Shown here in pieces: positions 8,284-59,632 of a DNA stretch of 64,000 bases. The position numbers were made by a program, and so were the translations under genes. The notes under the pieces are model-generated. The model was not told the origin of the DNA and ran no database searches. It saw only the letters and a list, made by a program, of their open reading frames with translations. Source of the stretch: Nitrospira tepida (lineage in GTDB: Bacteria; Nitrospirota; Nitrospiria; Nitrospirales; Nitrospiraceae); NCBI RefSeq assembly GCF_947241125.1, contig NZ_OX365700.1:3256001-3320000 (forward strand), in the 5' to 3' direction. The stretch's first letter is position 1; each line of letters starts with the position of its first letter.

Positions 8284-8611
8284 CTAGCCCGCATTATTCA
8301 TGACGGTTCTTGACGTTGCACCCGTTGCATATCCAGAGCAACGGGTACCCGAAGACGCCGGGCGTGGGACCCATTGCAGGGAGAAGAGCAATGGGTACCC
8401 CCACGCGGAGCCCCAAGAGGCCGAGGCATACTTGAAACAGTATGTCGAGGCCTTGAGGGGCGAGCCTGCCCGCCATACCAAGCTTCGCTTGAGCCGCCGC
8501 GCTCGATCATGTCGCGGCGGAGAGGCCCTTTGCCTCCGACTTCGCATGCTGGCTCGTCGCAGCGGCGTATCGGCGGTTGCAGTAGAAGCGTTCACGAATA
8601 ATGCGGGCTAG
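8284..8611 (+). mobile_element. Repeat element copy 1 (non-coding, hairpin-rich, CTAG-flanked)
   Basis: The core is 8288-8607, flanked by CTAG at 8284-8287 and 8608-8611. The ends are inverted: CCCGCATTATTCATGA at the left, and the right end read in reverse is CCCGCATTATTCGTGA. Two hairpins lie near the left end: ACCCGTTGC/GCAACGGGT (8320-8328 with 8338-8346) and ACCCATTGC/GCAATGGGT (8369-8377 with 8388-8396). A central block (about 8460-8550) is shared with copies 2 and 3. No convincing ORF or transposase. Confidence 0.88.
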
Positions 8612-18772: not shown

Positions 18773-19230
18773 CTAGCCCGCATTATTCATGACGATTCGT
18801 GGCGTTCCACCCGTTGCATGAGCGGCGCAACGGGTACCCGGCAGTCGCCAAGCGTTGGACCCATTGCATGTTCGACCCGTTGCATGGAGCAACCCGCAAC
18901 GGGTCCCCCGGCAATGGGTACCCCCAAGCACAGCCGCGAAGGACCAAGGCGTACGTGAAACAGTACGTCGAGGGGCGCACGGCGCGATGAATAAAGAGCG
19001 CCATGTCTGTGCGCGCCGCCGAGTCGGTGAGGCGGCCGGACCTGAGCGGCGCGCACTCCCGCCATACCAAGCTTCGCATGAGCCACCGCGTTCGATCACA
19101 TCGCGGCGGAGAGGTACTTTGCCTTCGACTTCTCATGTAGGCTCTGTCGCAGCGGCGAATCGGGGTGCCCATTGCTTGTCTGTTGCAATGGGCCAAGGCA
19201 GCAGAAGCGTTCATGAATAATGCGGGCTAG
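18773..19230 (+). mobile_element. Repeat element copy 2 (longest, nested hairpin)
   Basis: Core 18777-19226 between CTAG at 18773-18776 and 19227-19230. Ends CCCGCATTATTCATGA are identical in inverted orientation. Hairpins: 18809-18817 with 18827-18835; an outer ACCCATTGC/GCAATGGGT stem (18859-18867 with 18911-18919) that contains a complete ACCCGTTGC/GCAACGGGT stem in its loop (18875-18883 with 18896-18904); and GCCCATTGC/GCAATGGGC near the right end (19167-19175 with 19185-19193). An extra segment (about 18964-19052) is shared only with copy 4. Confidence 0.88.
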
Positions 19231-30042: not shown

Positions 30043-30714
30043 TTATTGGATCGACACCAGGCCGTTCGCAATGGCGTACTTCGTCAATTCGGCCGTCGTG
30101 TGGAGCTTGAGTTCTTTCATGATCCGGGTCTTGTGAAACTCCACCGTTTTAATCGAGACATTGAGGATCGCGGCGATTTCCTTGATTGACTTGCCTTCGG
30201 CCACGAGCTGCAACACTTCGCGCTGACGCATGCTGAGTCCCTGCGCAAAATCTCCGCCTTCCGCCGACGGCCCCTCCGGAGCCGCGGGATTCACGGCGCG
30301 ATCCACCAGGCCCTGGGCCACCATCGGCGAGACGAAGGTCCTGCCCTTCAACACTTCATTGAGGGCCAGCACCAATTCGGAACTCACGGACTGCTTAAGG
30401 ACATAGCCCGACACTCCGACTCGGAACGCTTCCCGCACGAAATTGTTTTCGCCATGCATGGTCAGGATGACAATCTTGATGCCGGGACTCGCCTTGAGGA
30501 TCTGCCGGGATGCGTCCAACCCGTTGAGCAACGGCAGCGCGATATCGACGACCGCAATATCCGGCTTCTGGTCTTCTACGGCCTTGAGCAGGGCCCGGCC
30601 GTCCGCGACCCGCCCAACCAGCGTGCAATAGGGTTCGAGCAACTTTTGAATCCCTTCGGCGACGAGTTCATGGTCGTCGGCGACAATCACCCTGGGCTTG
30701 CTGGCCATGGTCAT
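30043..30714 (-). CDS. LuxR/NarL-type response regulator
   Basis: 223 residues; GAGGAAG precedes the ATG at 30714, with a second ATG two codons on. The receiver has Asp57 in IAVVDIALP, where the usual M-P is L-P, and GYVLKQSVS. The HTH is LSMRQREVLQLVAEGKSIKEIA then KTVEFHKTRIM. It is convergent with the regulator at 29221 and clearly paralogous to it. Confidence 0.93.
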   Translation of the reverse strand: MTMASKPRVIVADDHELVAEGIQKLLEPYCTLVGRVADGRALLKAVEDQKPDIAVVDIALPLLNGLDASRQILKASPGIKIVILTMHGENNFVREAFRVGVSGYVLKQSVSSELVLALNEVLKGRTFVSPMVAQGLVDRAVNPAAPEGPSAEGGDFAQGLSMRQREVLQLVAEGKSIKEIAAILNVSIKTVEFHKTRIMKELKLHTTAELTKYAIANGLVSIQ

Positions 30715-31105
30715 CTTCCTCTCTTCTTCATGGGTGGTGTTCGACGGTTCGGACTCGGCCGTCTGTGTCGGCCCGCCGATGTGGAGAATGGAGAAGTATG
30801 CGCAAGTGTACTCCCTTTCGCTACAGACAAGTCAACCGCCTCGAATGGCCCGTCCCGGGCGGATTTCCAGACCCCCCACATTCTCCATGAACGGTTCTGC
30901 TGCTTCGGCCCATTGCAACAGAAGAACAAAGGGGGGAAACACGACGAACCGTCATGAACCAGCATTGAACAAGGCGCAATAGAAGTCGTTTCAAGCCCTC
31001 CGTTCACCCTTCGACCGACTCAGGGCGAACGGATCTGCTCCTGAAGACAGGATATATCTCGGTTCGTGCTTGTCAAAGCACGGTCATGGGGTTTTCAAAT
31101 GACTT
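30715..31105. other. Intergenic, 391 bases, holding a decayed repeat copy
   Basis: Between the regulator start and repeat copy 3. It contains the short degenerate repeat at about 30875-30967 and otherwise no gene. ORFs here derive from the repeat sequence. Confidence 0.5.
30875..30967. repeat. Degenerate, internally deleted repeat copy 5
   Basis: The left end CCCACATTCTCCATGAACGG matches the copy-3 type terminus, followed by GGCCCATTGCAACAG as in the right-end hairpin of copy 2. The other end, GTCATGAACCAGCATTG, is a decayed inverted terminus. Almost the whole interior is missing. No CTAG/TTAG flank remains. Confidence 0.6.
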
Positions 31106-31463
31106 CTAGCCCACATGATTCATGACCGCTTTTACTGCAACCGCCGTGGGACCCGTTGCGATCAAAGAGCAACGGGTGCCCCGGCTGCGACAAGCCAGCA
31201 TGCGAAGTCGGAGGCAAAGGGCCTCTCCGCCGCGACATGATCGAGCGCGGCGGCTCAAGCGAAGCTTGGTATGGCGGGCAGGCTCGCCGCTCGCGGCCTC
31301 ACCGTACTGTTTCAAGTACGCTTCAGCCGCTCAGGGCTCCGCGTGGGGGTACCCATTGCTCTTCTCCATGCAATGGGTCCAACGCCTGGCGTCTTCGGGT
31401 ACCCGTTGCTCCGTGCGTGCAACGGGTGGAACGTCACGATCCGTCATGAATCATGTGGGCTAG
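31106..31463 (-). mobile_element. Repeat element copy 3 (variant termini)
   Basis: Core 31110-31459 between CTAG at 31106-31109 and 31460-31463. Both ends read CCCACATGATTCATGA, differing from copies 1 and 2 at the same two positions on both sides. Internal order is the reverse of copy 1, so it is inserted in the opposite direction. It has the CCCGTTGC/GCAACGGG and CCCATTGC/GCAATGGG hairpins and the shared central block. Confidence 0.88.
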
Positions 31464-31529
31464 GGATTCTTCCAGTTCGATCCTGCTTGCCTTGCATTAC
31501 GCTTATACGAGGGGCAGAAGGACAAGAGC

Positions 31530-32321
31530 ATGTCCACTCGATCGACACGAACGTGGCGCATTGCCGCGATGCCCAGGCAGGGATCAGGCCCGCGCCCCTG
31601 CATCGGCGCCGTGGCGGTCGTCGCGCTTGCGCTCTGGACGGCGGTCGATGCGGCTCCCTGTCGCGCGCTGGAGCCTCCATCCGACGAACAGATCACCGCC
31701 GGCGTGACCCGACGGTTGACCGAACAGACTCCTCCGCTGGACCGCGTGCTCGTCCGCGTCGATCACGGCCATGTGCTCCTGTCCGGGCTTGTCCCGACCG
31801 CCAAGATGAAAACGCTGGCCACTCAGGAGACGCTTTCGGTGCCGGGTGTCCAATCCATCGCCAACAATCTCTGGATCGAGACGGAACCGCCGACCGATCA
31901 ACAGATGATGCTCGCGGTCCAGGAGGCGTTGCAGCTCGGACGGTTGACGCCCGGCAATAACATCATTGTCCAAGTTTCCGAGCGAGTCGTGACGCTGGCC
32001 GGCACCGTCGGCAGCGAAGCCCAACGAGCGGACGCCTTCCGATTGGCGCAGACCGTGCCGTTGGTCGAGGACGTCCATAATCAGATCGAAGTCGCGGGGC
32101 CGGCCAGAAGCGACCCGGACATCGCCAATGAGGCCGAGACGATCTTGAGGCTGTCGCCCGACATCAGCCTCGGCAGGCTGGTCCTCCGCGTCGTCAACGG
32201 CCTCATGACGCTTGAAGGTCCCGCCGAACAGCGGGAAGCCTTGACAACGGCCGCCGCACAACTCCGGACCATCCAGGGAGTCAGGGACGTGCAGGTGAAG
32301 GTCATCGATCAGGCTCCGTGA
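31530..32321 (+). CDS. Triple BON-domain exported protein
   Basis: 263 residues; AGAAGGACAAGAGC before ATG. The signal region ends near APCRALEP. Three BON units follow: about 52-112 (VRVDHGHVLLSGLVP), 118-180 (QVSERVVTLAGTVGS) and 190-260 (RVVNGLMTLEGPAEQ), each closing with a V-x-x-V/I-x-N/V pattern. OsmY-like proteins with repeated BON domains protect the envelope in osmotic stress. It starts 66 bases after repeat copy 3. Its 3' end overlaps the convergent kinase gene by 20 bases. Confidence 0.9.
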   Translation: MSTRSTRTWRIAAMPRQGSGPRPCIGAVAVVALALWTAVDAAPCRALEPPSDEQITAGVTRRLTEQTPPLDRVLVRVDHGHVLLSGLVPTAKMKTLATQETLSVPGVQSIANNLWIETEPPTDQQMMLAVQEALQLGRLTPGNNIIVQVSERVVTLAGTVGSEAQRADAFRLAQTVPLVEDVHNQIEVAGPARSDPDIANEAETILRLSPDISLGRLVLRVVNGLMTLEGPAEQREALTTAAAQLRTIQGVRDVQVKVIDQAP

Positions 32322-59289: not shown

Positions 59290-59632
59290 TTAGCCCGCAT
59301 TGTTCACGATGACTTCCACTGCAACCGCCGTTCGACCCGTTGCTGGCAAAGAGCAACAGGTACCCCGGCTGCGACAAGGCTGGCCGTGCCCGAAGGGCCG
59401 CCAGCCGGGCGGGCTCGCCGCTTAGGTCCGGCCGCCTCACCAACTCGGCGGCGCGCACAGACGTGGCGCTCTTTATTCATCGCGCCGTGCGCCCCTCGAC
59501 ATACTGTCGCAAGTATGCCTCGGGCTCTCGTGGCTCCGCGCGAGGGTACCCATTGCTCTTCTCCGTGCAATGGGTCCAACGCGTGGCATCTCCGCGGTTT
59601 CGTCACGAATTCTCGTGAATAATGCGGGTTAG
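59290..59632 (-). mobile_element. Repeat element copy 4 (TTAG-flanked)
   Basis: Core 59294-59628 between TTAG at 59290-59293 and TTAG at 59629-59632, a direct repeat and not an inverted one. Left end CCCGCATTGTTCACGA; right end in reverse CCCGCATTATTCACGA. It lies reversed relative to copy 1. It shares the segment at about 59417-59505 with copy 2 and lacks the CCATACCAAGCTT block of copies 1-3. It ends 157 bases before the GT4 start. Confidence 0.85.

Follow-up and report, generated by a model that had tools for sequence, protein, structure and literature searches.

The window, a 64,000-nucleotide stretch of Nitrospira tepida DNA spanning 3256001-3320000 of the complete genome, contains at 31106-31463 a 350-bp repeat copy (copy 3, 31110-31459) with CTAG on each side, and the locus raises the question of how both ends of one repeat came to carry the same two base changes. 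The sequence CCCACATGATTC stands at 31110-31121 (+) and again at 31448-31459 (-); in copies 1 and 2, each end reads CCCGCATTATTC. Relative to these copies, position 4 is changed from G to A and position 8 from T to G at both ends of copy 3. An earlier note on this DNA had described these paired changes and the CCCACATT start of the decayed copy at 30875, and both descriptions were borne out. It had attributed the paired changes to a matching transposase, to pairing of the ends or to a separate lineage, and had judged independent mutation unlikely.

Copy 3 and the other copies in the window

With up to one mismatch allowed, the end pattern had 8 matches in the window, where 1.7 would be expected (Table 1). 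With the flanking CTAG included, the inverted repeat of copy 3 spans 21 bp at 100% complementarity. The CTAG is a target-site duplication and lies outside the terminal repeat, because copy 4 has direct-repeat TTAG flanks and 39 of the first 69 complete genome copies have identical 4-bp flanks, nearly all of them YTAR. The left flank was YTAR in 57 of these 69 copies, and non-palindromic flanks are direct repeats (TTAG/TTAG, CTAA/CTAA). Copy 4 is mixed at position 9 (CCCGCATTGTTC at one end, CCCGCATTATTC at the other) and matched at position 14, where both ends carry the variant CACGA.

Palindromes of the two kinds nested in copy 3 were also present at 8368-8396, 18874-18904 and 59548-59576. 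Every match to the nested-palindrome pattern in the window fell inside a MITE copy (chance expectation 0), and in some MITE copies the palindromes occur on both arms. Judged solely by reading, copy 3 and the decayed copy are intergenic (30055-31530), between an apparent response-regulator ORF (-) and a rightward ORF. Gene context was surveyed with a crude ORF caller. No Rfam family reached its gathering score in the window.

Table 1. Positions of the MITE copies and their parts in the window, with insertion-sequence loci discussed in the text
Feature	Coordinates	Strand	Remarks
Target-site duplication of copy 3, left, CTAG	31106..31109	.	YTAR direct repeats across copies
Copy 3, hairpin MITE, 350 bp	31110..31459	- (canonical orientation)	folds with z = -8.2
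16-bp terminal repeat, left, CCCACATGATTCATGA	31110..31125	+	A4 and G8
16-bp terminal repeat, right, CCCACATGATTCATGA	31444..31459	-	identical to left
Target-site duplication of copy 3, right, CTAG	31460..31463	.	
Apical core hairpin, conserved, ...GCGTACTTGAAACAGTACG...	31276..31357	-	covariance model R1, 60.8 bits, E 8.6e-11
Palindromic insert nested in copy 3, ACCCGTTGC..GCAACGGGT	31150..31177	.	
Palindromic insert nested in copy 3, ACCCATTGC..GCAATGGGT	31351..31379	.	
Copy 1, G/T ends	8288..8607	+	nearest body relative of copy 3
Copy 2, G/T ends	18777..19226	+	carries nested inserts
Copy 4	59294..59628	-	target-site duplication TTAG; ends unlike at position 9, alike at position 14 (CACGA)
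Short decayed copy	30875..30973	+	left end CCCACATTCTCCATGA, right end degenerate
IS1380 loci, related Nitrospiraceae	L228, L229, L230, L231, L242, L247, L248		
IS110-carrying MITEs	L061 2001-3361, L062 2001-3360, L084, L111		genome 2469196, 2769059, 1088291, 2800356

End types across the N. tepida genome

The element is roughly 200-450 bp long, has terminal repeats of 16 bp and is flanked by target duplications of 4 bp (YTAR); the basic copy measures about 190-211 bp, and nested inserts lengthen copies. It is a MITE: short, without a transposase ORF, bounded by terminal inverted repeats and target duplications, and dispersed in many copies. We assembled 75 complete copies in the 4.73-Mb genome, gathered by end patterns, by copy 3 as a query and by the core covariance model. 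The first end pattern was biased to CCC starts and missed CGCGC and CCTGC ends; these were recovered by the core covariance model, which mended the bias for the N. tepida genome only.

Plain G/T was found at both ends of 33 of the 75 copies and plain A/T at both ends of 19. At position 4, the 5′/3′ states were G/G in 43 copies, A/A in 27 and mixed in 5, an association of the two ends that is significant in a test that ignores shared descent (Fisher 3e-14). Position 8 was T/T in 69 copies, one-sided in 5 and G/G in copy 3 only, which was also the sole copy with A4 and G8 at both ends. Other matched end types were CGCGC/CGCGC (3 copies, on three different bodies) and CCTGC/CCTGC (2 copies), and copy 4 falls in a CACGA type, with C/C at position 14 in 7 of the first 69 copies. 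Matched changes in the genome were limited to positions 2, 3, 4, 8 and 14, whereas one-sided differences at many other sites were never matched, which suggests that functional end variants also matter.

The body of copy 3 was closest to that of copy 1 (89.5%), which has G/T ends. When compared in 50-base blocks, its first 100 bases were nearest to G-type copies and its next 100 to A-type copies; oriented positions 201-250 matched copy 1 exactly, and the final 100 bases were nearest to the A-type copy L123. The body is thus a mosaic of G-type and A-type copies. Because of this mosaic, and because the nearest relative has other ends, the end types do not define clean subfamilies. Of the lineage proposal in the earlier note, A-type ends stood as a genuine class, with 27 of 75 copies A/A at position 4; the assignment of copy 3 to a second subfamily was not supported.

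Two minimal copies, L106 (36 bp, at genome position 2492578) and L069 (76 bp, at 191410), comprise little beyond the two terminal repeats. Both are small hairpins and A-type at both ends.

End types in related genomes

The end pattern was present in 101 of 147 same-family genomes, where relatives were represented by one genome per species; the named genomes that carry the repeat are mostly Nitrospira assemblies. Copies of 182-212 bp from the 147 genomes, counted by exact patterns that miss decayed ends, were 209 G/G, 40 A/A and 39 mixed at position 4 (n = 288), against 181, 12 and 94 expected under independence. The two ends are thus associated in the family, yet mixed ends are common. Mixed-end copies have also multiplied: three near-identical A/G copies occur at separate loci in G128, and several in G074. 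The earlier note had suggested sorting copies by end type and had named many mixed-end copies as the finding that would refute its proposal. Such copies were rare, though present, in N. tepida; family-wide they were nearly as numerous as A/A copies, which is the refuting outcome that the note had named.

In a collection of 219 copies, G at position 8 was found at both ends in 11, at one end in 11 and at neither in 197. About 1 copy with G at both ends was expected (Fisher 4e-11, again ignoring shared descent). The 150 copies from relatives were partly picked for mixed or A-type ends, and their proportions are not those of a sample, unlike the 147-genome counts.

To separate ancestry from coupled change, we used a tree built from the bodies without their terminal 17 bases (174 columns); these sequences recombine, and recombination among copies blurs any tree. 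On this tree, T8G occurred at both ends on the same branch about nine times, compared with a mean of 1.8 and a maximum of 6 in permutations. One-sided changes at position 8 numbered six at the 5′ end and six at the 3′ end (the latter including five T to G). A comparison of 94 disjoint closest pairs gave 9 that differed at position 8 on both ends (1.5 expected) and 6 that differed on one end. In one such comparison, L189 (G/G) and L319 (T/T) have bodies that are 96% identical and differ at position 8 at both ends. The excess of both-end changes at position 8, on the tree and in close pairs, upholds the earlier judgement that independent mutation is unlikely. In contrast, both-end changes at position 4 (7 against 6.5 expected) were barely above independence, and the A/G difference alone therefore fits shared ancestry with recurrent transitions. 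Weak coupling at position 4 is as expected for a frequent transition in CpG.

Covariation along the whole hairpin

The basic copy folds with z = -9.5, and the structures predicted from the two strands have 71 pairs in common. We aligned 96 diverse copies from many genomes. The full-length stem had 73 pairs, with 94.1% of cells paired and 45 pairs changed on both sides. The covariation score was 0.254; shuffled alignments gave 0.122 ± 0.003, and sliding the partners gave 0.04-0.06. Among close copies (45 disjoint pairs), the terminal repeat had 11 matched double changes to 25 single ones, the arm stem 25 to 101 and the inner stems 56 to 180, against 5 to 419 when stem columns were re-partnered. 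By this measure the MITE behaves as a structured element: compensatory changes exceed the shuffle and sliding controls and are also seen in close pairs. Because the arms and inner stems covary as well, the matched ends are best seen as the outer part of a general phenomenon and not a property of transposase sites. Equality of the ends through pairing, one of the options raised in the earlier note, fits these data, as paired changes run along the entire hairpin.

Misoriented copies were dismissed as a source of spurious covariation, since a reverse-complemented Watson-Crick pair is the same pair. A protein-coding role was also rejected: a frame from the terminal repeat is open in some copies, yet the amino acids vary while pairing is kept.

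Interior mispairs counted on one strand were more often G-T than A-C (197:89 in all copies, 121:61 in close pairs), whereas those in the terminal repeat had no strand preference (21:18, all copies). The bias would favor folding of one single strand over strand-neutral correction between arms, but it is suggestive only, because few columns carry much of it: about half of the interior bias came from six columns.

Relationship to IS1380-family elements

A search with PF13701 (IS1380 family) in copy-rich relatives yielded elements of 1.68-1.71 kb (E 4e-128), most with YTAR-type 4-bp duplications. One end of L228 and L247, CCCGCATTATTCATGA, agrees with the MITE ends at 16 of 16 bases, and the other end reads CCTGAATAATTCAYGA. 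The remaining IS1380 loci of the relatives have close variants of this end. The second end, CCTGRATAATTCAYGA in L228, L229, L242, L247 and L248, is unlike the first. Because L228 and L247 have CCCGCATTATTCATGA at one end only, the one distal to the transposase, both MITE ends match the same one of the parent's two unlike ends. The IS1380 insertion sequences (about 1.7 kb) share an end and YTAR duplications with the MITE, but carry a transposase and two unlike ends. Since end identity and duplication size agree, we infer that the MITE is moved in trans by an IS1380-family transposase.

In the N. tepida genome, no L228-type second end was found, no IS1380 copy with MITE-type ends was detected by the PF13701 search, and no relative of the L228 transposase was found in a search run without a positive control. 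With no cognate transposase, second end or matching IS1380 found, it is unlikely that a transposase is now equalising the ends in N. tepida. A different IS1380-family element is present in four nearly identical copies (L235, L244, L249 and L251, at genome positions 3751557, 1333097, 3139240 and 3238784); it was considered as the parent and rejected, as its ends are CCCTATTCTCCGGCTAAGC.

Discussion

The two ends of copy 3 most likely share their base changes because the arms of the hairpin change together along their whole length. With moderate confidence, we regard the matched ends as the outermost pairs of a hairpin whose arms co-evolve, in an IS1380-mobilised MITE. An IS1380-family transposase would act in trans, cutting the 16-bp ends and duplicating four bases of YTAR target. 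Beyond its ends, the element as a whole is a single long, imperfect hairpin around a conserved apical core, and bases on the two arms change jointly with pairing preserved. G4A and T8G in copy 3 would then be changes in the outermost helix, placed on a body assembled from G-type and A-type copies. We infer that the coupling may arise through selection for the folding of a single strand during spread. The main alternative route would be quasipalindrome correction, in which one arm serves as template for the other in hairpins formed at replication.

The main rival, which we think rather doubtful, proposes old lineages (G, A, CG and CT) with ends equal by descent, among which ectopic gene conversion swaps bodies and spares the outermost bases. 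It agrees with the mosaic body of copy 3, with L099, which is A-type at both ends and has a G-type middle, and with the lack of a clear excess of coupled change at position 4. However, the neighbouring subterminal bases were unchanged in the directly read cases among the repeated both-end T8G switches, so every conversion tract would have had to end no more than about 10 bp from the two ends of the element, and the compensatory changes in internal stems are not a conversion product. The same covariation of internal stems counts against a separate IS1380 transposase for each end type, under which only matched-end copies would be mobile and multiply. This is improbable, although the matched variants fall at few positions and autonomous IS1380 ends vary at several of them too. 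The two ends of an autonomous element are unlike each other, copies with mixed ends have multiplied in G128 and G074, and the cognate transposase was not found in the N. tepida genome. The matching transposase of the earlier note is disfavoured on the same grounds. Chance, that is, independent mutations at the same positions of both ends, is very improbable. Position 4 is a CpG transition site and often changed on one side, but the association of the ends at position 4 and the surplus of copies with G8 at both ends are far from expectation; the Fisher tests take no account of shared descent, but for position 8 the tree and the close pairs point the same way.

Beyond the preferred explanation of co-evolving hairpin arms, it is possible, though on balance not probable, that the MITE body functions as a structured nucleic acid, with one strand folded and kept by selection during spread and the terminal repeats as its outer helix. 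This tentative reading includes an apical core, GGCGTAC...GTACGTCGAGG, common to IS1380-ended hairpin MITEs beyond Nitrospira. If it is true, such elements would make up a class of 'structured MITEs', with folding involved in transposition or host tolerance.

MITE terminal repeats are usually read as transposase binding sites only; end identity can instead reflect folding or arm-to-arm copying. Correia elements are related to IS630. Prokaryotic MITEs with long predicted stem-loops are known, among them MITEPye1, which is tied to IS1182 (PMC11578231), and such elements are described in general terms in PMC2229807. For Correia elements, PMC2649163 describes an interaction with RNase III. MITEPye1 (PMC11578231) and Correia elements (PMC2649163) resemble the Nitrospira MITE in being short, transposase-less and intergenic, with terminal inverted repeats, target duplications and a long stem-loop. 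The Nitrospira MITE differs in its full-length compensatory covariation over about a hundred diverse copies and in its conserved apical core. Searches of open-licence papers turned up no account of this repeat, of any IS1380-ended MITE in Nitrospira or of covariation along the full length of such a MITE. Correction of quasipalindromes by template switching is described for inverted repeats in yeast and E. coli (PMC3820800, PMC8604942, PMC7202029); these papers concern no MITE family, and the one-strand G-T bias seen here would sooner suggest that a folded strand is under selection. With so many copies in nitrifying bacteria, it is testable whether the hairpin has a role in spread or the arms correct each other.

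Four loci in MAGs labelled Deltaproteobacteria, Binatota, Gammaproteobacteria and Saprospiraceae (L371, L396, L414 and L417) have the same terminal repeats and largely different bodies. They seem to keep an apical hairpin like the GGCGTAC..GTACGTCGAGG core; with the core model, only L396 scored reasonably (28 bits, E 0.0014). A further locus, L386 (labelled Betaproteobacteria), contains the same MITE at 84% and is possibly mis-binned.

An IS110-family insertion (PF01548 and PF02371) lies inside at least four MITE copies. L061 and L062 (1.36 kb) were therefore rejected as a transposase-bearing parent, their ORF being the nested IS110-family transposase. In the two fully read copies, the insertion point is the same, beside the apical hairpin (GGACCAAG|GCGTAC). 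This arrangement resembles the IS elements known to target REP palindromes (PMC1525189), and our guess is that a bridge RNA chose the target in these MITEs.
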